From positions 6,264,501 to 6,328,500 of the forward strand of contig OY821750.1 in NCBI GenBank assembly GCA_963682055.1: a DNA stretch of 64,000 bases. The letters are read 5' to 3'. The notes beneath the pieces are model-generated. The model had not been told where the DNA came from and ran no database searches. It saw nothing but the letters and a program-made list of their open reading frames with translations. The stretch is from Primula veris. Lineage: Eukaryota; Streptophyta; Magnoliopsida; Ericales; Primulaceae. Positions within the stretch are counted from its first letter, which is position 1, and each line of letters opens with the position of its first letter. A program made the position numbers and the translations under genes. Positions 12,860 through 34,414 of the stretch are shown here, one piece after another.

Positions 12860-14210
12860 AGCATATTCATTGATTGGTGCTTTTATGCAACTTGTATGTG
12901 CTTTTTAGCTCATTTTTTTAAAACACTCCCCCTTATAGTTTTGGTTTTATCTACTTTTAGTGGTACTTTATATCTTTTGATTGTTATAAGGTTTTGTTTA
13001 ATGTCATGTTTGTATTTAGACGGCGCCTATCGAATAATTCTGTCTAATTTCGTTTAATCATCGTTTAATCTGTCTAATCCCGTCTATAATCTGTTAGGCT
13101 TCTATACTCCGTCTACTGTATAGGTTTCGTCTAATTTCCGCGTAGACACGCTTTTTAAAACACTAGTACTAGTTTGGTGGTAATTTTTGAGTTTTTATTT
13201 TTACGTTTTGCCTTAAAATATATGGTTGGTGTTTTGTGCAACTTGTATGTGGGTTTGGACAATTTAATACACCCTTGTAGTTTTGGAATTATGTACTTTA
13301 TGATCTTTGTACTTTTTGTAGTGATGAGGATTTGTTTGGTTGCAACTTTTTAACTTTTTTTTCCCTTTTGGCTTAAAACATGGTTGGTGTTTTATGCAAC
13401 TTGACTTGTATATGATTTTGGGTAAATTTTTTAAGCACCCCTTATAGTTTTGGAATTATGTACTTTATTTCCTTTTATTTTTGGTAGTTATAAGGTTTTG
13501 TTTGGTGGCGACTTTTAAGCTTTTCATTTTTATATTTTGGCTTAAGATATGGTTGGTGTTTTATGCAACTTGTATGTGGTTTTGGGTAAAATTTCAAAAC
13601 ACTCCTTCTAGTTTTTGGAATTATGTACTTACATTTTATTTTTGTAGTTATAAGGTTTTGTTTGGTGGCAACTTTAAGCTTTTCTTTTTTGTGTTTTGGC
13701 TTAAAATATGGTTGGTGCTTTCTGTAACTTGTACTATATTATTTTGGGTAAAATTTTAATACTCCCCTTATAGTTTTGGAATTATGTACTTTATTACCTT
13801 GTATTTTTGGTGGTTATGAGGTTTTGTTTGGTGGCAACTTTTAAGCTTTTCTTTTTTGTTTTTTGGCTTAAAATAAGATTGGTGTTTTATGCAACTTGTA
13901 TGTGGTTTTAGGTAGACTTTTAATACACTCCTCCTAGTTTTGGAATTATGTACTTTAGTAATACGTTATATATTTTTGTAGTTATTAGGTTTTGTTTGAT
14001 GGCAACTTTTAAGCTTTTCTTTTTTGTGTTTTGGCTTAAAATATGGTTGATGCTTTATGCAACTTGTATATGGTTTTGGGTAAATTTTTAAAACACTCCT
14101 TCTAGTTTTGGATTTATGTACTTTAGTAGTACCTTATGTTAGTTATAAGTTTTTTTTTTTGTTGGCAACTTTTATGTTTTTCTTTTGCCTTTTGCCTTGA
14201 AATATCTAGA
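12860..14210. repeat. Tandem array of about 165-bp units upstream of the PYL gene, about 7 copies
   Basis: Each unit contains GGTTGGTGTTTTATGCAACT, TATGTGGTTTTGGGTAAA, ACTCCCCTTATAGTTTTGGA, ATTATGTACTTTA, GTTATAAGGTTTTGTTTGGT and GGCAACTTTTAAGCTTTTC. Anchors at about 13396, 13565, 13724, 13891 and 14059 give spacings of 158-170 bp. The interval 13016-13166 interrupts the array with unrelated DNA containing several GTCTAAT runs. The array begins about 240 bp upstream of the PYL ATG. Confidence 0.9.
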
Positions 14211-16929: not shown

Positions 16930-17497
16930 TGATAGAACATAAAAATTAGACCCGAATATTTTATTCGGGTAATAATCAACCCACTTTATAAATGGGTATC
17001 CAACGCTTAAATGGGTCATCTCATACTTTTTATAGGAATTGAGGTGTTACTACCAAAAGCCCAAACCCAATCAAATGGGGACCCATGTCTGAAAAATCAC
17101 TGGGATGAAGACATTTGTCAATATCTTAGAAGGCGCAGTTGCCTATAAATAGCCAACTACCCCTCCTAGAAAAGGACCAGAAAATCTATCCAAAAAATAT
17201 AGAGAGAAGTTAAGAAAAGAGAGAAACTAACCAAAGCATATCACTTCGAGAAATAAACCGAGAAAAGACAGCCGAGCACCGAATAAAAGGGGAGAAAGAT
17301 CAAGACGAGAGATTAAATAGTCATATCGAGCACAATTGTAAAACCGAAATACTAATCCGAGCAAATGTAATAGTCCGAACAAGGACAATAATCCGAGCAA
17401 TAATAAAGATCAGGAAGTATCCTTTATTCACGGTTGATTTACCATTATATCATTGTTGAAAAGCCTAACGCGACCGACCAAAGTTATGGCTTTATCA
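16930..17497 (+). repeat. 5' LTR (568 bp) with TATA box
   Basis: TG...CA ends. GCCTATAAATAGCC at 17151-17164 is a good TATA box for the genomic transcript, and AATAATAAAG near 17398 may serve as a poly(A) signal. The same boxes are present in the 3' LTR. Confidence 0.95.
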
Positions 17498-17499
17498 AA

Positions 17500-17519
17500 T
17501 GGCGCCGTCTCCGGGAATC
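17500..17519 (+). other. Primer binding site, tRNA-Asp-like
   Basis: TGGCGCCGTCTCCGGGAATC begins two bases after the LTR. It matches the complement of the plant tRNA-Asp 3' end (TGGCGCCGTTGCCGGGGATC, from memory) at about 17 of 20 bases. Confidence 0.75.
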
Positions 17520-17576
17520 ATCTAGTTCCCAACTAGTTTAGAATTCGAATACCAATACTCTGCCAGACGAGCGACA

Positions 17577-19340
17577 ATGGTTACCAATGTAGAGGAAACC
17601 CATCCCGAGATAGTAGAAACCAATAACCAAAACACGCAAATTAGCCAACAAGACCTCGACGATCTACTCGCTATCCGCGACAGATATGAAGCTATCCAAT
17701 CCGGAAACCAACCAACAACCTCCTACGTCAACCAAGAACAACCGGTCGAACCACCCCGACATTTCATCGAAGGGATTGTCGACGAACACCTTTCGTCCTC
17801 GGAGGACGAACAAGACGTGCCCGTATTAAGGCGTGCACGAAGACGCTTAACCGGGTCCCAAGCAGGGCCGAGCTCAAGAGTCCCTTTGCCTACAGCCTCG
17901 GTCAACTCCGGTGCTCGTTTACAAACGGACGAAGCTCATCAGTTTGGCATGCCCGAGGATCATGTACTCGGACAGTCGCCCCGACTACCGACTAATTCTC
18001 CGAGGATGATTACACCACCCACGGTGGAGGTACAACATGTTGTTCCGTTAGCCGATGAAAGGAACTACGCCCAGCTACAAGCTCAGCTGGCGGCATGCAT
18101 GACGGCCATGACAGCGGCCGGCATCGTATTGCCAGTTATCCAACCCGACAAGGACCCACGCCATGAAGTGGAAGATTCTGCCTACAGGGCCGCCCTGGAG
18201 GCAGCGGGTCGGCGACCCGATACAAGAGTCCCCCACCAAGGGGGCAATGTCCCAATAACTATCGTCCATCCGAACACTCATATGGAACGTGTCCACACAA
18301 ACACGAAGGACGGTAGATATCCCGAATACAGGATCGGGGAAGGATATGGCCCATCACCACATCAGGGAGGATACCCTCCCCCCTACCAAGTCACGGATGA
18401 CGCGTTTCAACAGGCTTGGAACGTATGCCAAGAAACCCCGTGTGCTGAACAGATCACGCGGTACCGCAATCCTATGGGATTCGTCATCCCCGAATTCAGG
18501 CTCTATGATGGGAAGAGTTGCCCTATCGACCATCTGAGGCACTACAAGACGAAGATGGAACTGTGGAGTGATGACCATGCACTGATGTGCAAATTTTTCA
18601 AAAACAGCTTGGGTCAAGAGGCTTCGTCATGGTATCATAACTTACCACGGGGCTCCATTAGAAACTGGGCAGAATTGCTAAGAGCATACTCCACCCGATA
18701 CGCTGCTCATCGGAAAAAGAAGGTTAGTATCGAAACCCTTCTTAAAATGGCGATGATGCCAAATGAAAGGCTCAACGATTACTGCATACGTTTTATCGAC
18801 GTAGCAAACCAGATTCCACGATATGCCAATAATATAGCCATCCAAAACTTTATCAATTCCATCCCTAATGGCTATTGGGCGAGAAGGAAGTTCATAGGCA
18901 AAAACTTACAGACCACTGATTCCCTGCTAGCCTATTTTACCCACCTCACCGATAAAAACGACGAACTGCGTTTCCTCAACCGAACTCTACCGAGAAGAGA
19001 GTCGGTCCGCGAGGCACAGGTGGGTCGCAAAAGAGTTAGGAATAACCAGGAAGAAGCATTCCAACCGACCAGAAAGGGCAAAGAGCCCGAGGTCCATAGC
19101 AGGGTAGAGCGACCACGAGCACTAGAGCTCAAACCGCTCCAGATCGCATACCCAACACCGACCAACGAACATAAACCGCACCAGCTCACCTACCCGATGC
19201 CACCCAAGCCATTTCAACAAGTTCGGCCCCAAGAGAGGGAACACCGAAACACTTTCGGACCGGTCGAGCTGCGATACACTTTCAACCTATCTGCTGAAGA
19301 TATCCTCAAGGATATATGCAGGGAAAGTTGGTATTCCTGA
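17577..19340 (+). CDS. Retrotransposon gag (587 aa), ended by an in-frame TGA
   Basis: Capsid protein of the element. The central retrotransposon-gag fold is visible at about residues 300-450: FRLYDGKSCPIDHLRHYKT, WYHNLPRGSIRNW, AYSTRY, ETLLKMAMMPNERLNDYCIR and NFINSIP. The N-terminal ~270 residues are polar and poorly conserved. The frame stops at TGA (19338-19340), but the same frame stays open beyond it and encodes the nucleocapsid-like CAYHEDHGHLTEHC motif at about 19391-19432. The TGA therefore lies inside gag, before its nucleic-acid-binding part. A nonsense mutation is the simplest reading; readthrough is possible because the stop is followed by C. Confidence 0.9.
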   Translation: MVTNVEETHPEIVETNNQNTQISQQDLDDLLAIRDRYEAIQSGNQPTTSYVNQEQPVEPPRHFIEGIVDEHLSSSEDEQDVPVLRRARRRLTGSQAGPSSRVPLPTASVNSGARLQTDEAHQFGMPEDHVLGQSPRLPTNSPRMITPPTVEVQHVVPLADERNYAQLQAQLAACMTAMTAAGIVLPVIQPDKDPRHEVEDSAYRAALEAAGRRPDTRVPHQGGNVPITIVHPNTHMERVHTNTKDGRYPEYRIGEGYGPSPHQGGYPPPYQVTDDAFQQAWNVCQETPCAEQITRYRNPMGFVIPEFRLYDGKSCPIDHLRHYKTKMELWSDDHALMCKFFKNSLGQEASSWYHNLPRGSIRNWAELLRAYSTRYAAHRKKKVSIETLLKMAMMPNERLNDYCIRFIDVANQIPRYANNIAIQNFINSIPNGYWARRKFIGKNLQTTDSLLAYFTHLTDKNDELRFLNRTLPRRESVREAQVGRKRVRNNQEEAFQPTRKGKEPEVHSRVERPRALELKPLQIAYPTPTNEHKPHQLTYPMPPKPFQQVRPQEREHRNTFGPVELRYTFNLSAEDILKDICRESWYS

Positions 19341-22300
19341 CCACAACCGATCATCTCTCCCCCCAATCAGAGAGATTCCAAGCTCTTCTGCGCATATCAC
19401 GAGGATCACGGCCATCTCACTGAGCATTGCCGTAACATGCGATGGAGAATGAACCAGTGGGGCGATGCAGGATACCTAGCCAAGTTCATCAAAGGAGCTG
19501 GGAATAAAGGCAAACAACTGGCCATCGAAGGATCCGACAATCGGCAAGGCAAAACGATCAACGTCGTTCATATGACAAGACCCAAGGGTCCAGGCGGGGA
19601 ACGATCGCGACAACGGCAGTTGGCCCACTTTGGCCAAGTATCCAAGGCATCACAGGCGTCGACCTTTAAACGACAATGCACACAACGACGACTTCCGCCC
19701 ATTTCTTTCTCGGATCTTGACGAAGAAGGGGTGATTTACCCCCATGGAGACGCCATTAACCTCCAAGTTCAAATTGGCCTAGACATGGTCGGCAGGGTAC
19801 TTGTCGACCAAGGAGCCTCTTGTGATATCATGTACAGGGAGCTCTTCGACAAAATGGAACTCAAGCTGCAAGATCTACGGCCTACTGACGTCACACTGAT
19901 CGGATTCATCTCCGAAACGACTAAACCGTTGGGTAAGATCGTCCTCAGTGTCACAACCGGGTCCGTGTCGGTTCCCGTGGAGTTCTTAGTGGTTAATGAC
20001 CACTCCGGTCACAATGCAATATTGGGCCGACCTTGGTTACATGCCATGAAGGCCATACCCTCGACCTATCACCAAAAGGTCAAATACCCAAATGACAGGG
20101 GAGAGATCGAGACAGCCAGAGGATGTCAAGAGGATTCAAGACGCTGCGAGGAAATCACCGCGACTCTCCAAAAACAACGAAGCATGGTGGAACAACCCAC
20201 CAGCACCAAGAAGCTGATCAACCAAATATCCAAAGCCGAAAGGGTTGTCGAAGAACAAGTAGGAGAGACACTCAGGAAGGTGTATATACCAGGTATGGAC
20301 GAGGAGCATTACTTCCTCCTCGGCGACAACCTTCCAAAACAGGAATCCGAGGAGTTGAAAGCATTCCTTCTCAACAACACTGATAAATTCGCCTGGAGTC
20401 CTAAAGATATGTCGGGCCTAGACCCCAATACGGCATGCCACCACCTAAGTGTAAACACCGAGTACAAGCCGATAGCACAGAGAAGCAGGAAAGTGTCTGT
20501 ACAGCACAGAGCAGCTATAATCGCTGAAGTACAAAAGTTATTGGAGGCTGGAGCCATAAGAGAGGTTTACTATCCAAAATGGTTGTCCAACCCGGTTGTC
20601 GTCCCTAAGAAGAACGGGAAGGAGAGAGTATGTATAGACTTCACAAACCTCAACAAAGCCTGCCCGAGGGACCACTTTCCCCTTCCGAGGATTGATCAAC
20701 TGGTGGACGCAACTGCGGGGGCAGAACGGATGACCTTCCTTGACGCATATTCAGGATACCATCAAATTCTCCTCGCCCGCGAAGATCAAGAAAAGACTTC
20801 GTTTATATCACCTTTGGGAAATTATTGCTATACGGTAATGTCGTTCGGCCTACGCAATGCGGGAGCAACATACCAAAGGATGATAACAAGAGTATGTCGA
20901 GATCATATAGGGAAGACGATGGAGGTATACATAGACGACATGGTCGTCAAGAGCGAAAGAGCCACATCCCACCTTCAAGATATCAGGGACGTTTTCCGAA
21001 CGCTGGGCGAGCACAAACTGAAACTCAATGCGAGCAAGTGTGCATTTGGCATCAGCAAAGGGAAATTCTTGGGGCATATGGTTAGCCGACGAGGAATAGA
21101 GGCTAATCCCGATCAAATAACGGCTCTACGAAACCTAGCAGCGCCCAAGAATAAGAAACAGGTACAAGAGCTCACGGGAATGATGGCCGCGCTGAGCAGG
21201 TTCATTAGCCGATCCGTAGATAAGGGATGGCCATTTTTCGAATCACTCAAGAAGGATAGAAAATTCGTCTGGGACCCGGAATGTGAAGCTTCATTCAACA
21301 ATCTCAAAGAGTACTTGAGGACATTGCCACTGCTAGTAAGGCCGAACAGAGGAGACATTCTGGCATGCTACCTAGCAGTTTCCGCTACAGCTGTGAGCGC
21401 GGTCATCCTAAGAGAAGAAGGTCGCGAACAATTTCCAATCTACTTCGTCAGCAAGACTCTGGTCGAAGCCGAAACCGTTATCTACCCTTGGAAAAGCTGT
21501 GCCTGGCATTGGTCGTCACAACCAGGAAGTTGCCACACTATTTCATAACTCATCAGGTCCGGGTATACACAAAATTTCATATTAAAGAGTCACTTCGACG
21601 GACGGACATTAGCGGCCGAGTTGCCGCCTGGGGGGTCGAGCTATCCCAATTTCATATCGAGTTCGCACCCCGCCATGCCATAAAGGGACAAGTCCTGGCC
21701 GATTTCGTCGCAGAATTCACCGAAGGCTATGACGAGCCTTTGGCACTCTCTCCACAATCACACTGGCAGATACATGTCGACGGATCAGCCACCAAGGACG
21801 GATCAGGAGCAGGGATCGTCCTAAAGTCTAGAGAGGGAGCAATCATCGAAAAAAGCATAAAACTGGGCTTCCGAGCTACCAACAATGAGGCAGAATACGA
21901 GGCCATGATAAATGGCATGCTTATTGCCCGGTCCCTCGGATGCTCCCACTTAATTGCAAGCTCAGACTCCATGCTCATCGTCAATCAAGCCATCGGCGAG
22001 TACCAAGCGAAAGATGATAGAATGATCCTCTACCAAGAGAAAGTCCAAAGCTTGATGGCAACCTTCGAACAGTGCGAGTTAGTAAGAATCAATCGCACCG
22101 AGAATGCACATGCCGATGCATTGGCCACCCTAGCCTCGACATTAACATTGACCGACACCCGGTCGATCACAGTGGAACTACTGCCGACCCCGAGCATAAT
22201 AAAAAGGGTAAACCAGGTGACATCGATACAGTACGAACTAGGATGGATGGAGGACATGACCCATTATCTGCGAAGTGGAACGTTTCCGGTCGACAAGATA

Positions 22301-23494
22301 AAAGCGCTGAAAATTACAAGAAAAGCTCCTCGCTTCTGGCTATCCGAGGACGATAAACTATACAAATCCAGTTACCGGGGACCACATCTACTGTGCGTCC
22401 CGACCGAGCTACAACTGCCGGTCTTGGAGGAAATCCACGAAGGATCTTGCGGAGCACACATCAAAGGGCGATCCCTTGCAAACAAGGCAGTGACCCAAGG
22501 ATATTGGTGGCCCTATATCAAGCGAGACGCCGATGCATACGTCCAACGATGCGACAAGTGCCAACGATTCGCCAAGATACCACGGCTCCCTTCATCTATG
22601 ATGACCCCGGTATCAGCACCATGGCCGTTCGCTCAATGGGCAATTGATTTGGTCGGTAAACTCCCAAGAGCACCTGGGAATGTGGAATATCTGATCATTG
22701 CGACTGATTATTTCACCAAATGGGTCGAAGCTAAACCCCTCCGAGAAATCAAAGCCAGCAACGTCAAACAATTCATTTGGGAATACATCATAACTAGGTT
22801 CGATATACCGTACGCTATAGTCGCCGACAACGGAACCCAGTTCAAAGATGTCAATTTACAGCTGTGGTACAAGGAACTCGGTATCCGAAAATTCTATTCG
22901 ACGCCGACATACCCACAAGGGAACTGGCAAGCCGAAGTGTCAAACCGAACAATATTAGACGGCATCAAGACCACCCTTGAACAGGCAAAGGGGAGGTGGC
23001 CCGAGCGGCTACTCAACGTTTTATGGTCGTGCCGAACTACACCCAAGACGGGCACCAAGGAAACCCCGTTTAGCTTAGCATACGGTGTTGAGGCCATCAT
23101 ACCGACAGAGATCGGGCTACCCACGCTCCGAACGATGTTGGTCGAGCAGGGAAATAATGAACAAAGAATGAGAGAAGAGCTCGACATGATAGACGAGAAA
23201 CGAGAGATAGCGGCCCTTACCCTAGCTAAGTACCAACAAAGCGTGAAGCAAACCTATGACAAGAGAGTAAAAGGGTCTAAAGAATTCATGGTAGGAGAAC
23301 TGGTGCTGCGACGAGTGACGGTCTATACCCGCAACGAAATACATGGCAAACTAAGCCCTACCTGGGAAGGCCCATACGAAATCGTCAAGCAAACAAATCC
23401 AGTCTCTTACAAAATCAAAAGCGTCCTGTTCGCCAACAGCCAAGGGGAAAAGAATTCTTGGAATGTGGCTAACTTAAAGAAGTACTACGTATAG
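19341..23494 (+). pseudogene. Retrotransposon end of gag plus pol: protease, RT, RNase H, second RNase H, integrase; frameshifted
   Basis: The frame continues from gag: CAYHEDHGHLTEHC motif, then aspartic protease (LVDQGASCDIMY, about 19800-19833), reverse transcriptase (PVVVPKKNGKERVCIDF, FLDAYSGYHQI, catalytic YIDD at about 20928) and the first RNase H (YFVSKTL). Near 21474 one base appears to be missing, so this frame ends at 21548 and the protein resumes one frame over up to 23494. The second frame has EFAPRHAIKGQVLADF, then an archaeal-type RNase H (IHVDGSATKDGSGAGIVL, TNNEAEYEA, ASSDSML, HADALA), integrase zinc motif (HEGSCGAH..., CDKCQRF) and catalytic core (AIDLVG, ADNGTQF, PQGNWQAEVSNR), ending LKKYYV. 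The double RNase H supports the Tat lineage. With two lesions this copy is unlikely to make a full polyprotein. Confidence 0.93.
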
Positions 23495-23589
23495 GCAATG
23501 CTCCGAATACAAGTACAGGTGCTACCTTACCCTTCTTGCTTAATGGCATTATCTTTCTTCTTTTGAATGAATAAAATATATTATTATGT

Positions 23590-24557
23590 TGTCTACTAAT
23601 ACTATGAAATTCCCAACATGGCCGAAGTGCCTAGGAATACTATGAAATTCCGTAAATGGCGTGTTACCGAAGGAACGTCTAGGAATACTATGAAATTCTC
23701 AACATGGCCGAAGTGCCTAGAAATACTATGAAATTCCGTAAATGGCGTGTTACCGAAGGAACATCTAGGAATACTATGAAATTCTCAACATGGCCGAAGT
23801 GCCTAGAAATACTATGAAATTCCGTAAATGGCGTGATACCGAAGGAACGTCTAGGAATACTATGAAATTCTCAACATGGCCGAAGTGCCTAGAAATACTA
23901 TGAAATTCCGTAAATGGCGTGTTACCGAAGGAACGTCTAGGAATACTATGAAATTCTCAACATGGCCGAAGTGCCTAGAAATACTATGAAATTCCATAAA
24001 TGGCGTGTTACCGAAGGAACGTCTAGGAATACTATGAAATTCTCAACATGGCCGAAGTGCCTAGAAATACTATGAAATTCCGTAAATGGCGTGTTACCGA
24101 AGGAACGTCTAGGAATACTATGAAATTCTCAACATGGCCGAAGTGCCTAGGAATACTATGAAATTCCGTAAATGGCGTGTTACCGAATGAACGTCTAGGA
24201 ATACTATGAAATTCTCAACATGGCCGAAGTGCCTAGAAATACTATGAAATTCCGTAAATGGCGTGTTACCGAAGGAACGTCTAGGAATACTATGAAATTC
24301 TCAACATGGCCGAAGTGCCTAGAAATACTATGAAATTCCGTAAATGGCGTGTTACCGAAGGAACGTCTAGGAATACTATGAAATTCTCAACATGGCCGAA
24401 GTGCCTAGGAATACTATGAAATTCCATAAATGGCGTGTTACCGAAGGAACGTCTAGGAATACTATGAAATTCCCAACATGGCCGAAGTGCCTAGGAATAC
24501 TATGAAATTCCCAACATGGCGTGTTACCGAAGGAACGCCTAGGAATACTATGAAATT
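23590..24557 (+). repeat. 86-bp satellite array inside the retrotransposon, about 11 units
   Basis: Each 86-bp unit holds two related halves: GGAATACTATGAAATTCTCA plus ACATGGCCGAAGTGCCTA (38 bp), and GAAATACTATGAAATTCCGT plus AAATGGCGTGTTACCGAAGG plus AACGTCTA (48 bp). Anchors at 23682, 23768 and 23853 give an 85-86-bp step. Units are nearly identical, so the array was homogenised recently. It starts about 95 bp after the pol stop. Confidence 0.95.
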
Positions 24558-24972
24558 TATATGCAGGTACAATGCAAGGAATTATTCAGGTCCACATTAC
24601 GGCGGCGATGCAATATAAATTGGCTAAAACAATGAAGGAGAATCAATCTAAACAACAAAATATCAACAAGAAGCATCTCCAAAACAGGAATAACGAAATA
24701 ACAAATGATTTAGCAAGGAAAAATCGATCCAAGCAATTAAATAGCAATACGGCAATGGAAAGGTACAAAATAGGAATAAAGAAATAACATAAATAGTCCT
24801 CGCCCGCATTACGGAGGCAACAAGAAGATCATCGACACTAAAGAGATTCATTTAAGAAGAGCTACTGCAGGAGGAGCACGACGGTAATTGACCGAGCTCA
24901 ATCTCTTCGTCATCCGTCGTTGTGTACCCATCAGACTCATCACCATCAAAACGCTCCTCAGAAATGAGGGCA

Positions 24973-25485
24973 TCAAAATTGGTCGTATGAGCCCCAAGTC
25001 AGCGTCTGAAGCCGCGCGTTGAACTCGGCTTCTTTCGCGAACTCGTGAGCATCCGAGGCCGCTTTACGGCGATCATCGTCAAAGGAGAGGTTACGGCGAG
25101 CTTCGATCATAGCTGCGGAAGCATCGTATCTGGCACGGGACAAACGGAAATACTTCACCAACACGTTGGCCTTGGTCACAAGCAACTTTAATTTGCCGAA
25201 GTACTCGTCCTTTGCACGCCAATATCGATCCAAACGACGCTCCTGAACCTCAACAGCATGCTCGGCACGGTGAACGTATTCTCGAAAAGAGGCCGCCTGG
25301 GTTTTCAGCTTGGTCCGCAGTCGAGCACATTGGTCGGTCAATTTGACATTTTTGCTCATCAAAACAATGTAGGGCCACCTGTCAGGCACCTCACTAGCCG
25401 CACCAGATGAGACCTCGTCCCGGGCAGCACTAGTAGGTCCTAACCCCGGGTTAACTAGGCATGGAGAACCAGCCTGGTGCGACAT
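24973..25485 (-). CDS. Antisense ORF H of the retrotransposon, coiled-coil protein (170 aa)
   Basis: Function unknown. Starts MSHQAGSPCLVNP; the rest is charged and helix-prone (RLRTKLKTQAASF, AEHAVEVQERRLDRY, AKEAEFNARLQTL). No membrane segment or catalytic motif. A TATA box (TATAAA on the minus strand, 25607-25612) lies 122 bp upstream. A pyrimidine tract followed by TATAG just before the ATG could also be a 3' splice site. It is the antisense ORF nearest pol and shares a strand and direction with seven others. Confidence 0.65.
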   Translation of the reverse strand: MSHQAGSPCLVNPGLGPTSAARDEVSSGAASEVPDRWPYIVLMSKNVKLTDQCARLRTKLKTQAASFREYVHRAEHAVEVQERRLDRYWRAKDEYFGKLKLLVTKANVLVKYFRLSRARYDASAAMIEARRNLSFDDDRRKAASDAHEFAKEAEFNARLQTLTWGSYDQF

Positions 25486-25499
25486 AGTAGCATGTGCCT

Positions 25500-25620
25500 A
25501 TAAAAAAAGAGGGGGGGAGAAGAACGAGAAGAGATGAATATAAAAAAAAAAAAAAAGAGGGAAAAAAGAGAAAAAAAAGAAGCTACAAAAAAAAGGGAGA
25601 GAATTTTTTATACAAGCTAC
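25500..25620. repeat. Purine-rich low-complexity tract
   Basis: The plus strand is almost all A and G (GAGGGGGGGAGAAGAACGAG, then A runs). On the antisense transcript it is a pyrimidine tract between ORFs G and H. Confidence 0.7.
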
Positions 25621-25648
25621 AAAGAAAACGACAAAACAAGCTATTTTA

Positions 25649-26221
25649 TTAATCCGACAACCCCTCAACAGACGCCGAAGTCTCTACTACATCGGCAAAA
25701 TGAATATCTCGCAATGAATTAATTCGCGTCCCCAAACGCTCACGAATGACCGCCTCGATTCGGTTCAAGGCAACAGTGGTTTCAGTTACCCCGGCCTTCG
25801 CATCCACCATGCGCTCTGCCCGGGACACACCACTCATTCCTTTTATATGCTCCAGCACCTCTAAGGCGCGAGCTCGGGCCCAATACGCTTTGGCAAAGGA
25901 TAGCAGCAGATCCGCGTCCTCGAAAACGGCCCCAAGGACCAAGCTCAAGCTCGTCACACGACCTCGGGCTTCATCACGAGAGCGTCGTAGGGCACCGAGA
26001 AGTTCCTTTGCTTTACCCTTATTTGCCGTATAATGGGCGGTCTTTTTACTAAATTTCTCTCCCAAATCACGTAACCGGATCGCCAAGTTGGAAATATGAA
26101 TATTCAGACCCTCGATTTCCTGATAAGCACAAGTCAATTTCGCGATAAGGGACGCGTTAGATCTTTCCAAATCTTCCATTACGTCACCTACACTACGACT
26201 AGGCGAGGTCCAGACCACCAT
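25649..26221 (-). CDS. Antisense ORF G of the retrotransposon, helical protein (190 aa)
   Basis: Function unknown. I take the ATG at 26219-26221 (MVVWTSPSRSVGDVMEDLE); the frame is open upstream to 26314, but TATTGTCAG just before base 26242 may be a splice acceptor. The protein is Ala-, Arg- and Glu-rich and helical (ERSNASLIAKLTCAYQEIEG, KAKELLGALRRSRDEARGR, ALEVLEHIKGMSG). No strong TATA is seen. It could instead be a downstream exon of the spliced antisense gene that ends at 26434, though that gene has its own stop. Confidence 0.6.
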   Translation of the reverse strand: MVVWTSPSRSVGDVMEDLERSNASLIAKLTCAYQEIEGLNIHISNLAIRLRDLGEKFSKKTAHYTANKGKAKELLGALRRSRDEARGRVTSLSLVLGAVFEDADLLLSFAKAYWARARALEVLEHIKGMSGVSRAERMVDAKAGVTETTVALNRIEAVIRERLGTRINSLRDIHFADVVETSASVEGLSD

Positions 26222-26433
26222 GGCAAGGGGGTTATTTGGTACCTGACAATATTTTGTTTTCACATCCTTCAAAATATGACGACCATCAAAAGAAATTAAC
26301 CCAAGAAAGCCCAACAGAAAGAAACCACAGCACCTATATTATCACTTCCCCAAAAGAATCTGTTTCTCGATACACAAGAGACCAAAAAAAAAATAAAAAT
26401 AAAAATAAAATATACATACTGCTAGAAAGATAG

Positions 26434-28874
26434 TCAAGGTTCCACCTGAGGAGATACTGGTGGGGGAACAACAGTAGCATCCGGTCGAGGAGTGGACGGG
26501 GCCGACATAGAGTGAGGACGCAGCGCTGTCGAAATTGTCTGTCCCGGTAGCCGAGGAAGCTCTTCTTCACGAAGATTCGCCCAGTCCAAGGGTTTCGGCG
26601 GTGCACCATGCGGACACGGATACACCAACTCCGACCACGCCCTATCCGACAAAGGAACATTCGCGAAATTGAGCGCCCGCACATGAGCACAGTATACAGC
26701 GAAGTTGGCCATCATCGCTAACTTTGTCTGCTCCTCCGCATGTGCCGTTTTCAGGGCAGACACCTTAGCCTTTTCGGCTTCCACGTCCTCTGCCAGGAGC
26801 AAGTTCTCCTCCTCTAGTTCGCCGTACTTAACGACCATGCTCTCTTTTTCCGCCTTCAATTTCTCGACATCCTCGGTCAGGTGCAGAAAGTCCACCGACA
26901 GCTTGTCATAATTCTCGCCCAGGGTTTTCTTCGCGGCGACCACTTTCTCCTTCTCGGCCACCAGCTTCTCTTTCTCAGCCCCTAGAGCTCCCAGCTGATC
27001 CTGTAGCGCCACGGTACTCACAGCAATCTGCACTTCAACACATTAGATTCCAAATAAAATACAAGTAGCAGACCTATATAGCGAAATACGAGCCCCACGT
27101 ACCCTCAGCGCATCCGCGTGGGCCTGCTCTATAACCGACATTATAGGTTGGGCAGATAGTCTTTCTGCATCCTTGAACACAAGGGGTTTCAGAGCCGTAT
27201 ACCCCATCTTCAAGGTTCGCGGTTGCTCCAGCAGTTCACCCCTACATCGGTCAATGTAACGGGTCATTGCAACCCCGTCAACCAACACCTTCTCGGATCC
27301 GTCGAGAGCCTCATCCTCGACACCCGTCACAACATCCCCGGCATTCTCTTCGCTGCCTTCCATTTCCACCCCCACGTCCTCCTCCAACTGATCAATCTCA
27401 GGGGCCCTATGCTCGATCTCTTCCTCAGTACGGAGGGGCGAGCAAACGGGCAAATCTATCGGACCCTCGGTGGGGATAGGCGAGATGACAGGCAAAGTCA
27501 TCGTACCCTCTCCCATGTTAGTCAAGAGGTTCATATGTCCGAATACATCGTCGATCGACCCCTGAAACACAATAATACCCATAAACCGGGCAAGAGCGAG
27601 GGTAACCAATGGAGAAGTCAGTAGCTGAAACAAGATGACTAATAAAGCAAAGCACTAGCGAACAAAATGACAAACAACCAAAAGACAAGAAAATCATAAT
27701 ACATATACACATACTTCGCCCGGCGCAGAGGCATCCTCGGCGGTATCCCCTTCGGCGGCAGCCACCGCCCCCTCGCCTGAGCCAACGATATCAGCCTCCT
27801 CGGTAACCGATGTATCGGTTCCCCTGGCCCTCTTCGTTACTCCACCAACAGGGTCAGACGCATGACGCTTAGACCGAACGAGCTTCTTCCTGAGCCGAGC
27901 AGCACTTCGAGCCCGGACCACTTTCAAGAACTCTTCCTCGGGCTCTTTGGGGATCTCGGGCGCAGGATTCCCCTTGGTCACCGACCCCATCGGGTACCCG
28001 AGCAGCATCGGGGCACTACGACTAGCCGGATCCGGCGTCGGTCCCGGCCCCCACCATTTCCAAAGAGCTAACAGAGCCTCTACATTGGGAGCGCCGAGGT
28101 CTGGCATAGTGGGAGCATTGGTAGCCGGCTCAGGAATTTGGTGTCCCGGACAAGCCCATTCACCAGACGCAATAACAATACCAAGATTGCGCTCTTTGTT
28201 GGTATCCGGCAAACCGATAACGAGCCGGCAAAAGGAACGCAAGGTTTTCAGATACGAGCTGCGACGCTCAAAGCTCAAACTATAGACTCCGAAGACATCC
28301 TTCAGTTCAATCGGTATTCCGGACAGCTCCGATAACCTTTGGATACCATTCAGAGTACGGTAACCATTTAGAGCCAGTTGGGCCGGAGCAATCTGGACGG
28401 CCTCAAAGAACGAAGCCACCCAGTTTGTAAAGGGCAGTCGAAGACCCCCAGTGAAGAATGCCGAAGAGCGCACAGCCACCTCGCCGGCAGGAACAAATCC
28501 CAGCACCTCCTCGTCAGAAATAGGAAGCCGGATATGTATGTTGTCAGGTATTCCGGCAAGCTCCTTAAAATCCTTTTCTACGAATGTGCCAATTTGGGCC
28601 ACACTTTGGCTCAGAATTTCCTATCCAAACATCATCAAAAGTCCATCAATATACTAACCAAATACACAAACAAGAACCACATCAATATAACGAGCGCCAC
28701 CCCCCCCCCCCCCCCCCACACACACACACATTAACCAGATACATAAGAATCATCAGACATATATAGATAACCTGAACCATATACCAACGACACACCTATG
28801 ACCACAACGACAAATCAAATACAACTCCTAAAAGAGGGAAGGGGGGAGAACGAAAAATCACTTACAGTAATCAT
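26434..28874 (-). CDS. Antisense spliced gene F: gypsy-type Transposase_28-like domain plus coiled coil (about 655-676 aa)
   Basis: Proposed minus-strand exons: 28866-28874 (ATG ATT ACT, donor GTAAGT), 27715-28620 (302 codons, donor GTATGT), 27103-27624 or 27103-27561 (two in-frame acceptors, both after TTTCAG), and 26434-27027 (197 codons plus stop). All joins are phase 0. The second exon has FFTGGLRLPFTNWVASFFEA, LALNGYRTLNGIQRL and LVIGLPDTNKE...GEWACPG, the pattern I recall from plant proteins labelled 'putative gypsy type transposon/Transposase_28'. It continues into a basic stretch (RARSAARLRKKLVRSKRH), an acidic middle and a long coiled coil in exon 4 (EKEKLVAEKEKVVAAKK, ENLLLAEDVEAEKAKV). 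Function is unknown; the domain name does not show transposase activity. The tiny first exon is the least certain part. Confidence 0.72.
28699..28731. repeat. Poly(C) run joined to a CA microsatellite
   Basis: A run of about 19 C is followed by (CA)7. On the antisense strand it falls in the proposed first intron of gene F. Confidence 0.9.
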
Positions 28875-29574
28875 TATGAGCAAGCAAGCGCGAACAACAG
28901 CAAGTCTTCCAACAAAACCGCGAAACCCTAGATCAAGCGGCCGCACTCTTTTCCTTTTTGGCGGGAAGAATATGCTTTAGAGAGAGAGATATTTTCTTCA
29001 GCAAAATTCTGTGATAAAAATAAAACAGGATTACTTGGCACAATAGAAAGGAGTGGAGTCACAAAAAGAATAAAATAATAACCGTCCTTTCGTGTAACAG
29101 AGGTTTACCTTTTTTTCCAACCATACAAAAGTCAACAACCGCTGCTCTTTTTAACATATAAACGCTCCAGATTTCGCCACGTCAGCGCGTATCCCACTAC
29201 CCAAGGCAGTTCACATCATTAGACCTAAATAAACGGCCAGTGGACCCTACCACGAAAACCTTCCCACATACGCTACCACTACTATCACACCGAGAATATC
29301 CCCCGATTAAAGTTCCTCGACTCCCAACCAATCCTTACCAAAAGGGCACACCGAACAAGGTGGACGAAGACCGTTTCTAGCTTGATGGCAGGGAGCATCA
29401 AGTCTAACAACGCTCCGGGGGGATAACCGGGCATATTGTTCGGTGTATGCTCAGAAACATAAAAGAGAAGCAAACAGGAAATAAAATAGGATAGAATCAA
29501 GTGCAAGACAAGTTTTATTCATCCACAAAGGGGGAAACACAAACAATACAACAGAAAAAGAAAATACACCCATC

Positions 29575-29937
29575 CTACTTTTTCGAACTATCCCCCATAG
29601 CAACATCCCTCTTCGCCAAAAGTTCCTCCAGACGCTCCTTCTCCCTAACCAAACGAGAAATCGCCATCTCAGCCTGTTTCAAGGCGTAAGACTGAGACTC
29701 GCATTTTTGCTCGGCCTTGAAACGAGCAGTGCCCTCCTCGTCCCAATATTGTTTAAACCTCCTCGCTTCAGTCCGAGCACACATGAGATCATGTTTCAGC
29801 CATGACATCTCAATTTCTTTTAGTTGAAGAGGAGTCAAATCCTCCTCCCCAAAGCCAGGGGGACGAGGTAGCAAAAAAGTAGGCTCCTCTTCCATAAGGG
29901 CTTTCTTTTTGGAGGCAGACCTAGTGATGGGAGCCAT
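29575..29937 (-). CDS. Antisense ORF E of the retrotransposon, coiled-coil protein (120 aa)
   Basis: Function unknown. Starts MAPITRSASKKKALMEEEP; the frame opens five codons earlier but this ATG has the better context. A basic Ser/Arg start resembles a nuclear signal. Residues about 45-115 are helical (EARRFKQYWDEEGTARFKAE, SRLVREKERLEELLAKRD). TATA box TCTATAAATGCTCCC lies about 85 bp upstream (30021-30029 region) and AATAAA is present on the minus strand about 60 bp after the stop (29513-29518). It looks like a self-contained short gene. Confidence 0.68.
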   Translation of the reverse strand: MAPITRSASKKKALMEEEPTFLLPRPPGFGEEDLTPLQLKEIEMSWLKHDLMCARTEARRFKQYWDEEGTARFKAEQKCESQSYALKQAEMAISRLVREKERLEELLAKRDVAMGDSSKK

Positions 29938-30169
29938 CTCACGCAAAAGCAAGTTAGAAGCAAATTATAAAACAAGAGAGAGAGGAAGAATTTGTAACGA
30001 GATACAGGCAATAGGGAGCATTTATAGAAAATCAAAAGGCACAAAGTACGAAGCGTTACAATGGCTCACAAGACAGGCACGAGATACGAGAAGATACAAC
30101 TGATTCATCAAATACAGAAAATAAAACACAAATGGCAAAAGGGGAAATACATAAGAAAACCAGCCCAAT

Positions 30170-30616
30170 CTAAGGATCAATGGGTGGAAAAACCGAACTG
30201 CCAGACCGAGAGAAAGCAAAACGAGCAGAACAATTCAACCGAGCTTGGTAGGAATCGTTCATGGCGACCAAATTGTCATTCTCCGAGGAGAGCCTGTTGT
30301 TTTCCGTAGTAAGAACCCTGACGCGCTCCACGAGCCGAGCATTCTTTACCATTATGCTAGCTAGGCCTTGAGGAGAGTTGTCAAACTCATCTTGAGAATG
30401 GTCCCAAATTTCCTCGGCATCATACCAGGAGTTGGCCAGATGGTTTCTCTGTAGCAACAAGTGATCGAGCTGGCGACTCAGTGCCGAGATCTCGGTCCAC
30501 TTCACCGTCTCTTCGGGATAAGAGCCGAACAAGCTCAAGGCCAAAACGCCATACTCTTTCTCAAGCCTTGCCATCCGACGGCGGACCTGAGATACCTCAG
30601 TGTCCAAGCCCTTCAT
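30170..30616 (-). CDS. Antisense ORF D of the retrotransposon, coiled-coil protein (148 aa)
   Basis: Function unknown. Starts MKGLDTEVSQVRRRMARLEK; the middle has EISALSRQLDHLLLQRNHLA and the end NARLVERVRVLTTENNRLSS. The frame is open further upstream, where an SGP peptide aligns with the true start region of ORF C, but D has ATA where C has ATG, so the ancestral start seems lost. TATA TCTATAAGTAC (around 30744-30754) is about 85 bp before that lost start. Confidence 0.62.
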   Translation of the reverse strand: MKGLDTEVSQVRRRMARLEKEYGVLALSLFGSYPEETVKWTEISALSRQLDHLLLQRNHLANSWYDAEEIWDHSQDEFDNSPQGLASIMVKNARLVERVRVLTTENNRLSSENDNLVAMNDSYQARLNCSARFAFSRSGSSVFPPIDP

Positions 30617-31029
30617 CTGAGCATGATATCTCACCACAGGTCCAGATATTCTGGGAAATTGTTTAGTACGGAGGAAAATAAAGGGCTGAGGAAGAGAGAA
30701 GCAAAAAGAAAAAAGAGATGATAAACTACCAAAGAAAAGAGAAGTACTTATAGAACGGAGAGTATGATATTTTATGACCTTGCTTGGGAAATTGCATATT
30801 TCCTGACCTACTAGGGAGCATGCACATATGTTTGACAGTGATGGGGACATCTACTGACATCTGAGACTACAGTGCAGAAGAAATAAAGACGAGATATTCA
30901 AAGATCTAGATTCCAGACAAACAACAAACCACAGGTACAATATAAAAAGAAATGCAAAAATAAAAGGGCAAAAATACTTTTCATTAATGAAGATGGAATA
31001 CATCATTGTTCATTACATCAAAAGACAAT

Positions 31030-31165
31030 ATTACATCGAGGTCTGTTACATCAAGGTCTATTACATCCGAGATAAAAACCTATTACATCCGAAAAGAAAA
31101 CCTATTACATCCGAAAAGAAAACCTATTACATCCGAAAAGATCTATTACATCCGAGAAGAGCTAG
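31030..31165. repeat. Short tandem repeats, unit about 22 bp (CTATTACATCCGAAAAGAAA)
   Basis: The motif CTATTACATCCGA(A/G)A(A/G) recurs about five times, preceded by two related GTCTATTACATC(G/A)(A/G)G units. It lies between antisense ORFs C and D. Confidence 0.85.
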
Positions 31166-31199
31166 TACAGAAGATCAGGCAAAGGATCAACTATATCAG

Positions 31200-31710
31200 C
31201 TGACCAAGTGAGCAGGAGACGCCAAAAAGAAAAAGTAAGAAGAATGAGAAAGGAAAAGCAAGAAGAGGAAAAGAAGAAGAGTGCAAGAAAAGAAGAAGTG
31301 ATAAGAAAGAAGAGTCAAAAAGAAAAATGACCAACCCTAAATGTAACACAAAACCCTTTGGATCACAGGGCTGATTGTTACATCGTAGTGGTGCAAAAAA
31401 AAAAAGAAAAAAGAAAAAAGAAAAAGAGTGATGGGAGAGAAGATGAAGAAAAAGAAAGAGGAGGCACAGAAGAAAAACAGATGAGAAGAAGATAAAGAAA
31501 TGAAGGAGACAGACAACTAAAAAGGAAGTCAATGAAACAAAAAAGAAAGGGGAAAAGAAAAGAATAAAAAGTACGAGAGAACAGAGTATAAAAAAAAACA
31601 CAAGAGAGGAAGAGGAAGAAATGAGGGAAACTGAGAAATAAAAAGAAGAAAAAGAAAGAGATGGGAAAAGATGGGGAAAAGCAGAGAAAAATAAAAAAAA
31701 GAAGGGGGAA
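31200..31710. repeat. Long purine-rich (GA) tract, about 500 bp
   Basis: The plus strand is mostly A and G (for example GAAGAGGAAAAGAAGAAGAG), broken only near 31320-31400. It directly follows the stop codon of antisense ORF C, whose transcript would carry it as a polypyrimidine tail. Confidence 0.85.
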
Positions 31711-31712
31711 GG

Positions 31713-32006
31713 TTAGGGGGAAGTCGATCGGTATCGATGAGAGGGCCCGGCAGAGACATCACTGTCCCTCAGTGTCGGGTTCCCCCTTAGCATCTCATTC
31801 TCTTCGACTAGAGCCTGACGAGCACGTCGGCAGTAAGCCAGTTCGGATCTTAGCCAAGTTAATTCCTGAACCATCTCGGTATGGTGATAACGCATCACCT
31901 TCAATTCCTCCTCGGCATCCCTCAACAGCCTTTGTACATGGTTATAGGAGGCTTCAAATGCCTCCACTTACAAAGCTAATGCTGATTGGGTGAAAGGACC
32001 AGACAT
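31713..32006 (-). pseudogene. Antisense ORF C of the retrotransposon, interrupted coiled-coil gene
   Basis: An ATG at 32004-32006 opens MSGPFTQSALAL, then an in-frame TAA (31968-31970) stops it, and the same frame continues 84 codons (VEAFEASYNHVQRLLRDAEE ... ELAYCRRARQALVEENEML). TATA TCTATAAATACC (about 32091-32100) sits about 90 bp upstream, as in ORFs D and E. A single nonsense change in an otherwise intact short gene is the simplest reading. Confidence 0.62.
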
Positions 32007-32640
32007 CTTAGGGAAATTATAAGATGAGGGTCTATATATGGGGGAAAATAATATGATAAGAATTGTGGATGTAACCATGCTGTAAGCAGGTATTTATAGA
32101 TCAATTAGATGAGGGCTGGTATTGAGAGTCGCAACCGTTCGCCAATGGGTACTAAGAAGCGATGGCAATTAAAAGATGTCTGTTCAAGAAAGAACGTTTG
32201 GATTCCCCAAAGGTTCTAAAAAAGCGTGAGTAATTAAAAGCCACTCTTGTTCATAAAACGCTTGGATTCTTACCAATATTTAAAGGGGGTAAGTAATAAT
32301 GGCAGCAAAACACGCGTCATTTTTGGGAAGGGCAGCGGTTCAAATAAATATCCCAGATCTTTTGCACAAAGCTCAAGAAAACTCTGGTGAATAAGATTTT
32401 TTATGCACAAGGCTCAAGAAATCCTATTGGTCCCTAGATATAAAGAGTAAGAAGGTCCAATGGATAAGATCAAACGCAAGGCCCAAGAAAAGCATTAATG
32501 AGGCCACAAGCGTGCGCAGTCAAAATAAATTGCATTGGGAAAGTAATTCAGATATAAAAAAGAAAAAGAAATCTTTATTGATTGGTTGATACTTCGTTAC
32601 AGAAGAAGCACAAAGAGGAAATACAATGAAAACAATAAAA

Positions 32641-32979
32641 TCATTTCATAGAAGGGCCCGCTTCATCATTCGGCTTCCTTTTCGACCGAGCATACACTTC
32701 CTTAAGGGCCAATTTGTAAGCCCTCTTGGAAGCAAGCTGCCTATCTCTGGAGGCCTCGAGCTCTTTGATCCGGGCACGAGCGCGAATACTGTCGAGCAAA
32801 GACCTCTGGTGCTCCTTCTCCAGGGCATCCAATCGCTCGTCTAGTTCGGCGGCCCGACGAGCTTCCACCGACAGACGGGCAACCCTCTTCTCGAGATAAC
32901 GCACCTTCTGAACTTCCTCTTCCAGACGGGCAACGTATTCAGGAAGGTTGTCACCATAGTTTTCAAGAGAAGAAGCCAT
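32641..32979 (-). CDS. Antisense ORF B of the retrotransposon, coiled-coil protein (112 aa)
   Basis: Function unknown. MASSLENYGDNLPEYVARLE, then a long coiled coil (VRYLEKRVARLSVEARRAAE, RARARIKELEASRDRQLA) and the tail KRAYKLALKEVYARSKRK. The tail matches ORF A (KRAYKLAFKELHARSK), and both start MASS, so A and B are paralogues. TATA CTTATAAAAGGGG (33031-33038 region) is about 52 bp before the ATG and AATAAAG lies about 65 bp past the stop (near 32572). Confidence 0.7.
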   Translation of the reverse strand: MASSLENYGDNLPEYVARLEEEVQKVRYLEKRVARLSVEARRAAELDERLDALEKEHQRSLLDSIRARARIKELEASRDRQLASKRAYKLALKEVYARSKRKPNDEAGPSMK

Positions 32980-33282
32980 TTGTTCGTTAATAAAGAATGA
33001 ACTGCATAAAGAATACTGGGACAGTCCCCTTTTATAAGAAGAAACAAGGAGTAGATCAAAGGTCATCTCGAATAAATACAACCTCTTGAACTTCCCAAGA
33101 GCATTTACGGCGAATTAACCACAGTTCCAAATCCAATTAAAGTCATCCAAAAAGACATCAAGAAGATAAACAGACAAGAACAAGGAAAGGGAAATATTTT
33201 ATTAATTTCAAAAACTTCGATTACAACTGAGGAGAAGACTCCCCATTCAAGAGAAATTACGACAGAAATTACAAAAGACTAA

Positions 33283-33603
33283 TTATTTCGAGGAAGAGCC
33301 TTCTTCATCGTCATCCGAACTCGGTTTAGACCGAGCATGCAACTCCTTGAAGGCAAGCTTATAGGCCCTTTTTGCTGCCTTCTGCTTAGCCAGATTAGCC
33401 TCGAGCTTCTTTATATGCTCGTAGGCCCAATCCCGATCGGCCATCGTCACATGATGATCAGAATCCATGTCAGACAACCTTTTCTTGTAGTCTGAAACCT
33501 TGGCCACGAGTTTCTTATTCGCGGTACGAGATTTCTTGATTTCCGTTTCTAAATATGAAATATAATTAAAGGAGCTCTCAACAGTAGAACCTGAAGAAGC
33601 CAT
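33283..33603 (-). CDS. Antisense ORF A of the retrotransposon, coiled-coil protein (106 aa)
   Basis: Function unknown. MASSGSTVESSFNYISYLET, coiled coil (TANKKLVAKVSDYKKRLSD, YEHIKKLEANLAKQKAAKR), conserved KRAYKLAFKELHARSK, and an acidic-Ser tail (DDDEEGSSSK). TATA CCTATAAAGGGG (33655-33667 region) is about 56 bp before the ATG; AATAAAA follows the stop by about 75 bp (near 33203). First antisense gene next to the 3' LTR; paralogue of ORF B. Confidence 0.7.
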   Translation of the reverse strand: MASSGSTVESSFNYISYLETEIKKSRTANKKLVAKVSDYKKRLSDMDSDHHVTMADRDWAYEHIKKLEANLAKQKAAKRAYKLAFKELHARSKPSSDDDEEGSSSK

Positions 33604-33654
33604 TATGTCACGAGCAAATTAGTAAGTAAAATGTCTAAGTATGGAGGGAGCACA

Positions 33655-33667
33655 CCCCTTTATAGGA
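33655..33667 (-). promoter_or_regulatory. TATA box of antisense ORF A
   Basis: Minus-strand CCTATAAAGGGG, followed by GTGCTCCCT. Closely related boxes precede ORF B (33028-33040), C (32091-32100), D (30744-30754) and E (30019-30030), and resemble the LTR box CCTATAAATAGC. Confidence 0.6.
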
Positions 33668-33846
33668 TTTTTCCTCGAAGAAAGATATTAGGATAGAAAA
33701 CATTAAATGTGCCCCCCGGGAACCGTCATAAGTCTATTACGTTTCTCGATGAAGCATTGGGAAGGACAAGACCGAAGTAACGTTATCGACAAACCAAACA
33801 TGACTCCCCCGACATGGAAACCACGCCGAGGAAGTCAGGGAGCACT

Positions 33847-34414
33847 TGATAGAACATAAAAATTAGACCCGAATATTTTATTCGGGTAATAATCAACCCA
33901 CTTTATAAATGGGTATCCAACGCTTAAATGGGTCATCTCATACTTTTTATAGGAATTGAGGTGTTACTACCAAAATCCCAAGCCCAATCAAATGGGGACC
34001 CATGTCTGAAAAATCCCTGGGATGAAGACATTTGTCAATATCTTAGAAGGCGCAGTTGCCTATAAATAGCCAACTACCCCTCCTAGAAAAGGACCAGAAA
34101 ATCTATCCAAAAAATATAGAGAGAAGTTAAGAAAAGAGAGAAACTAACCAAAGCATATCACTTCGAGAAATAAACCGAGAAAAGACAGCCGAACACCGAA
34201 TAAAAGGGGAGAAAGATCAAGACGAGAGATTAAATAGTCATATCGAGCACAATTGTAAAACCGAAATACTAATCCGAGCAAATGTAATAGTTCGAACAAG
34301 GACAATAATCCGAGTAATAATAAAGATCAAGAAGTATCTTTTATTTACGGTTGATTTACCATTATATCATTGTTGAAAAGCCTAACGCGACCGACCAAAA
34401 TTATGGGTTTATCA
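33847..34414 (+). repeat. 3' LTR (568 bp)
   Basis: Same length and ends as the 5' LTR, with about 11 single-base differences by eye, mostly C/T and G/A. Target duplicate GAACG follows at 34415-34419. The purine-rich GAGGAAGTCAGGGAG just before it (33821-33843 region) is the likely polypurine tract. Confidence 0.95.

Follow-up and report, generated by a model that had tools for sequence, protein, structure and literature searches.

Among plant long terminal repeat (LTR) retrotransposons, the Retand elements are the closest described counterparts of the locus treated here. All Retand clusters surveyed have antisense open reading frames (ORFs) between pol and the 3' LTR, and TRP28 is found among these in 97% of the clusters (PMC11963269). 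In that survey the region from pol to the 3' LTR measured 2,933-6,566 bp and the internal region 7,380-12,869 bp, while 104 antisense ORFs of at least 600 bp were counted in 63 clusters (Vicient 2025, PMC11963269). According to the accessible part of PMC6317226, Tat elements have an additional RNase H domain besides the usual one (RH), which in the angiosperm lineages Ogre and Retand lies between RH and the integrase (INT), and elements of up to 24.1 kb are on record. Cut-offs for ORFs were set at 600 bp (Vicient, PMC11963269) and, in the same accessible part, at 250 codons (Neumann 2019, PMC6317226). No function is assigned to the antisense genes of Retand elements in PMC11963269 or in the available portion of PMC7264820. 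Here, we describe an LTR retrotransposon of Primula veris with a row of eight antisense units, located in a stretch of 64,000 nucleotides (GCA_963682055.1, contig OY821750.1, positions 6,264,501 to 6,328,500), which is referred to as the window and to whose first letter all positions are counted.

A Row of Eight Minus-Strand Units

The units lie between pol and the 3' LTR, all on the minus strand, and are named A, B, C, D, E, F, G, and H in order from the 3' LTR (Table 1). At positions 24973-33603 the minus strand contains ten ORFs of at least 100 amino acids that begin with ATG, compared to a mean of 0.67 and a maximum of 4 in 200 dinucleotide shuffles; the plus strand contains one, compared to 0.8 in the shuffles. 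Nine of the ten correspond to units A, B, D, E, G, and H and to exons 2-4 of F, and the tenth (26684-26334) overlaps exon 4 of F in a different frame. Unit C is missing from this list because of an early in-frame stop in this copy. Chance or shadow ORFs are ruled out by the shuffles and by the frame-shifted controls given below. The row was found where the original prediction had placed it, and the number of its units exceeds the published Retand average. The "clear paralogues" of the same prediction hold for one pair: A and B are related (40% identity, E 2e-16), and neither BLAST nor profile comparison revealed a further related pair among the units. For the short units the start codon is the ATG chosen downstream of the TATA box, and the frames of B, C, and E continue open upstream of the chosen start in many copies, that of C in most.

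The genome searched comprises 436.5 Mb in 34 contigs, from which 20 other copies were taken by DNA similarity to positions 26000-27000 (the first 20 of 39 other best-matching places). All 20 are colinear with the antisense row and keep its order, so that the conservation between copies that had been named as a check was indeed observed. One of them (L021) has a large insertion inside F and a sequence that ends before A, and was excluded from most counts. With the window included and L021 left out, unit A is intact in 20 of 20 copies, B in 17, C in 18, D in 16, E in 16, F in 13, G in 17, and H, scored on its first 167 codons, in 17. Minus-strand frames of at least 60 codons that occur in at least 8 of the 21 copies are either these units or other frames over F (27712-27518 across intron 2, and 26684-26334 in 10 copies), and the plus-strand frames above the same thresholds mostly overlap the antisense units. 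Among the best-scoring protein matches listed for the whole genome (window included), which are biased toward intact copies, internal stops are absent from 150 of 150 for A, 147 of 150 for D, 147 of 150 for G, and 141 of 150 for H. In the copy of the window itself five of the eight units are intact, because C is stopped early, D lacks the start codon that is present at this place in 19 of the 21 copies, and the frame of H is shifted near its end, with a stop-to-stop frame of 174 codons compared to 216 in most of the matches listed genome-wide. A large share of the 150 matches listed for unit A, on many chromosomes, has the same score and identity (98%), which suggests a recent burst of one subfamily.

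Selection on the Reading Frames

Pooled over its units, the row evolves as protein-coding sequence under purifying selection. For changes shared by at least two copies, the ratio of nonsynonymous to synonymous changes per site (N/S) is 0.20 in the true frame. Shifting the frame on the same strand gives 1.08 and 1.19, the three frames of the sense strand give 1.20, 0.34, and 1.32, and noncoding stretches give 0.66-0.88. For singletons the ratio is 0.49 in the true frame and lies at 0.58-1.03 in the control frames, and in a first count the shared changes (0.20) differed from the singletons (0.52) with a Fisher p of 8e-9. Scaled by the noncoding mutation spectrum, the pooled omega of shared changes is 0.29 (p 7e-19), shared stops number 0 in the pooled units where 9.7 are expected, and gapped columns make up 0.45% of the coding but 15.5% of the noncoding alignment.

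Taken one by one, A (shared omega 0.17), B (0.13), and F (0.25) are each significant. C, D, E, G, and H together have an omega of 0.58 (p 0.038) and 0 shared stops compared to 5.0 expected (p 0.007 under a Poisson assumption). As judged from the aligned sequences, the case for purifying selection is therefore firm only for A, B, and F, since the other five reach significance only when pooled, for which it is suggestive. The dN/dS check named in the original prediction thus came out as expected for the pooled row and for A, B, and F, and fell short of individual significance for C, D, E, G, and H. Between subfamilies, nonsynonymous (dN) and synonymous (dS) divergence were 0.043 and 0.401 for one pair of TRP28 exon 2 sequences (exon 2 of unit F) and 0.008 and 0.130 for one pair of unit A. 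Divergence is uneven along the row when L049, L050, and L051 are compared with the window: dS is 0.40 for exon 2 and 0.13 for A, both from one other element, and 0.03 for D, from a different one, as if subfamilies had exchanged modules.

Unit F and the Proteins of the Row

Three GT-AG introns link the four exons of F into a single frame of 655 amino acids, and their splice dinucleotides are retained in 20 or 21 of 21 copies. The predicted protein is laid out as a TRP28-like N-terminal part, a linker, a coiled-coil-like part, and a C-terminal part. Its match to PF04195 is below threshold (E 0.013, 16.2 bits, cut-off 26.2 bits), and it resembles a PF04195-bearing protein of Fagus (E 5e-4, 29% identity over 18% of the query), with which it has TGGLRLPF in common. 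The first protein search with F, in which scoring was limited to the 7,995 candidates with most words in common, returned this protein as its one homologue, and a second search returned none. On these sequence resemblances F is taken to be a divergent Transposase_28-like (TRP28) protein, and the antisense TRP28 of the Retand elements is counted as present. The structure prediction for exon 2 has a mean predicted local distance difference test (pLDDT) score of 32, too low for use.

Among the 145 matches listed for TRP28 exon 2, 109 are stop-free, 23 have one TAG, in rows starting within the intron (22 of the 145 begin at residue 2 and one more at residue 3), and 13 have another stop. A stop shared within one TRP28 subfamily was considered and rejected: in the row inspected (L049) the TAG is the intron acceptor, and the others are presumed to be alike.

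The proteins of the short units would be mostly helical. For A the structure prediction consists of a single 90-residue helix with a short tail (mean pLDDT 84), while for the others helicity is suggested by composition and, for some, by weak, sub-threshold matches to coiled-coil families. An unnamed protein of 190 amino acids in ENA, from a contig of 1,087 bp, is 96% identical to unit G.

Expression Signals

TATAA[AG] occurs at nine sites on the minus strand in 9.2 kb, and six of these precede the start of a unit (A, B, C, D, E, or H) by 57-127 bp. Only 0.05% of circular shifts equal this placement (p 0.0005) in a range of 55-130 bp, which was fixed after the distances had been seen. The six boxes are retained in 18-20 of 20 copies, with TATAAG counted as retained, and AATAAA follows A, B, and E. 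For unit G neither TATAA[AG] nor a poly(A) signal was found, and G may be carried on the transcript of F.

Structure and Age of the Element

The element of 17,485 bp (16930-34414) is a Ty3/gypsy LTR retrotransposon of the Tat type. In pol, RVT_1, a piece of RT_RNaseH, RVT_3 (1.6e-18), Integrase_H2C2, and rve follow each other in this order, and the Pfam match of the protease is slightly under the cut-off. The additional RNase H (RVT_3) between RH and INT places the element in the Tat clade and bears out the type given in the original prediction. GAACG is present at both flanks as a 5-bp target site duplication, and this and the LTR pair are found in Retand elements but are common to most plant LTR elements and so not specific to Retand. 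The two LTRs differ at 11 of 568 sites, eight of them transitions. With substitution rates taken as 1.3e-8 and 7e-9 per site and year, this corresponds to an insertion about 0.75-1.4 million years ago.

Two lesions interrupt gag-pol in this copy: an in-frame stop, past which the frame reads on into pol, and a frame shift near 21,500. The open frame of the pol part extends over 735 codons. Among the 79 pol matches listed (window included), 57 are stop-free within the query part of pol and 11 of these 57 keep an open frame of 1,927-1,989 codons (read as stop to stop), so these lesions are not family-wide; other copies have other stops. The original prediction had set intact antisense frames against a broken gag-pol and had offered either recent decay of pol or a separate reason for keeping the antisense genes. 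Intactness applies to five of the eight units, C, D, and H being damaged, and the contrast itself disappears: three lesions in about 1,650 antisense codons compare with two in about 1,989 codons of gag-pol, a similar density, and this copy therefore gives no sign of a separate reason. A young, decaying copy explains the broken pol, because the LTRs differ at only 11 of 568 sites.

Table 1. Features of the element in the window (positions in the window; unit starts as chosen in the text).
Feature	Position	Strand	Description
5' LTR	16930..17497	+	568 bp; 98% identity to 3' LTR
Primer binding site region	17500..17517	+	adjoins 5' LTR; starts TGGCGCC
gag part of gag-pol frame	17577..19340	+	PF03732 (1.2e-10); closed by in-frame stop in this copy
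pol	19437..23494	+	protease, reverse transcriptase, RNase H, additional RNase H (RVT_3), integrase; Pfam matches in order
Tandem array	23591..24557		86-bp unit x 11.2, 97% matches; between convergent gene sets
Unit H	24973..25485	-	170 amino acids here, shifted near end; TATA box 127 bp upstream
Unit G	25649..26221	-	190 amino acids
Unit F	26434..28874	-	exons 28874-28866, 28620-27715, 27561-27103, 27027-26434; 655 amino acids
Unit E	29575..29937	-	120 amino acids; TATA box 89 bp upstream, AATAAA 56 bp downstream
Unit D	30170..30649	-	159 codons; start codon absent here; TATAAG 103 bp upstream
Unit C	31713..32006	-	97 codons from chosen start; premature stop here; TATA box 92 bp upstream
Unit B	32641..32979	-	112 amino acids; paralogue of A; TATA box 57 bp upstream, AATAAA 62 bp downstream
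Unit A	33283..33603	-	106 amino acids; TATA box 61 bp upstream, AATAAA 80 bp downstream
3' LTR	33847..34414	+	568 bp

By eye, the 86-bp unit of the tandem array resembles a doubled motif of about 43 bp, with two similar ATACTATGAAATTC halves. Short tandem repeats with units of 15 and 22 bp, GGATGTAATAG on the minus strand, lie between units C and D (31029-31158). Outside the element, tandem arrays are located at 13172-14186 and 45671-46419, with periods of about 168 and 80 bp among others. Frames resembling host genes are present there as well: a long minus-strand frame at 40512-42557 is presumably DnaJ-like, and the plus-strand frames at 56300-62232 are taken, likewise by eye, to be cyclic-nucleotide-gated-channel-like.

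Possible Roles of the Antisense Genes

We consider it quite probable that this is an ambisense Retand-type retrotransposon, whose eight leftward accessory genes encode helical and TRP28 proteins that regulate or protect the expression of the element itself; this estimate leaves an anti-silencing role aside. The 5' LTR would drive genomic RNA and gag-pol rightward, while the accessory genes would be read leftward from the side of the 3' LTR, six of them behind their own TATA boxes, and the two gene sets would converge on the 86-bp tandem array. Each short unit would be a separate mRNA gene. Antisense placement would carry the intron-bearing gene through the RNA stage, since the sense RNA presumably cannot be spliced at the introns of F. 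The helical proteins would then act with the TRP28 protein in the nucleus, where they would regulate or protect the element's own expression; our preferred guess for this role, made by analogy, is a DNA-bound complex on the repeats or promoters of the element that would keep the element active in the face of silencing. That the units help the element somehow is suggested by the many copies that keep them readable. A more far-reaching version, in which TRP28 and helical proteins assemble on the 86-bp array or the leftward promoters and keep the element unsilenced, would make them a counterpart of VANC in LTR retrotransposons, possibly widespread in Retand and missed by surveys whose cut-offs removed ORFs of less than 200-250 codons; we regard this as unlikely.

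Several observations weigh against a row of eight functional protein genes. None of the shared omega values of C (1.15), D (0.76), E (0.50), G (0.45), and H (0.45) reaches significance by itself, H has an omega of 0.96 over all changes, and unit D shows 3 synonymous and 4 nonsynonymous differences from one subfamily to another, too few to inform. Singletons, which are expected to be near neutral, are also low (N/S 0.49, omega 0.69), and one sense-strand frame reaches 0.34 for shared changes, where the degenerate positions probably coincide with those of the true frame. F, the largest unit, is intact in just 13 of 20 copies, and the genome-wide counts carry the bias of best-scoring matches. Neither F nor G has a TATAA[AG] site, F being preceded by a weak TATATG 286 bp upstream, the range of the TATA comparison was chosen after the fact, and the protein searches with F and G yielded no homologue with a named function.

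A narrower explanation would confine function to the TRP28 gene and the A/B pair, with C, D, E, G, and H as passengers that are intact through the youth of the family. A, B, and F alone are individually significant and the fetched copies are only a few per cent apart, but each of the five is intact in 16-18 of 20 copies while noncoding sequence has accumulated its many gapped columns, their pooled omega and the absence of shared stops point to constraint, and C, D, E, and H have kept their TATA boxes; we consider this explanation to be rather unlikely. The antisense RNA rather than any protein could be what matters, as double-stranded RNA or as a block of genomic RNA, with the frames incidental. 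Transcripts from the leftward promoters would indeed be complementary to genomic RNA over its 3' half, and the idea has been published for elements of this kind (in the available portion of PMC7264820). However, selection is tied to the true frame and is lost in the shifted ones, and shared stops are absent, which makes an RNA role in place of the proteins distinctly improbable, although RNA and protein functions could coexist.

Two further explanations concern the origin of the row. Its introns make F look like a host gene, as would be expected if the element had captured host genes by transduction, but the protein searches with F and G gave only the Fagus protein, annotated as a gypsy-type transposase, and the ENA protein close to G, and TRP28 is not reported outside transposable elements (PMC11963269), so that capture appears very unlikely. 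The opposite strand and the promoter-like sites would also fit a second mobile element nested in one retrotransposon copy. This is contradicted by the 20 other copies, all of which have the row in the same position apart from the missing end of L021, and by the 1,197-2,637 first-look genome candidates for parts of the row (most of them unscored), unless the second element had already been nested in the ancestor of the family, and we give it hardly any credence. The reading that we prefer thus remains that of an ambisense element with leftward accessory genes.

This family lends itself to the study of such genes: purifying selection is seen across its pooled units, six of the eight have a recognisable promoter site, and near-alike copies are numerous within one genome of modest size. 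The published cut-offs of 600 bp and 250 codons would lose six and seven of the eight units, respectively. If short antisense genes prove to be general, studies of plant genomes have overlooked a layer of small proteins encoded by such elements, and a counter-silencing role becomes testable unit by unit.

Comparison With Known Systems

The element resembles Retand in its long region between pol and the 3' LTR, its antisense ORFs, a TRP28-type protein on the antisense strand, an array beside pol, and an additional RNase H before the integrase. Unlike the surveyed elements, whose sizes form a descriptive range, it has 10,352 bp from pol to the 3' LTR and an internal region of 16,349 bp, both above the published maxima, and eight units, six of which are shorter than 600 bp. 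Its total length is unexceptional, since elements reach 24.1 kb (in the accessible part of PMC6317226). A row of short antisense genes with their own promoters is not described in the main text of PMC11963269, and the open-licence literature yielded no antisense-ORF report closer than that study.

An antisense gene between pol and the 3' LTR is also found in gene23 of the maize element Grande and in the Retand ORFs of Silene, and for Grande an own promoter and a nuclear protein are reported (available portion of PMC7264820). Grande has one such gene and Retand-2 has ORF3/4 (in the part of PMC11728184 at hand), unlike the eight described here. Antisense genes of deltaretroviruses, HBZ among them (named in PMC11963269), likewise lie in a reverse-transcribing element, a likeness of arrangement.

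The working model for a protective role comes from a different class of element, as VANDALs are DNA transposons. VANC of the Arabidopsis VANDAL elements is an element-encoded accessory protein whose targets are often tandem repeats, and its anti-silencing activity is demonstrated for VANDAL, unlike here (accessible part of PMC5735166). Antisense ORFs with TRP28 are a known kind, because they are a published hallmark of Retand (PMC11963269); as far as searches of the open literature reach, what is new in this element is the presence of so many small antisense genes together with a region of 10,352 bp between pol and the 3' LTR.

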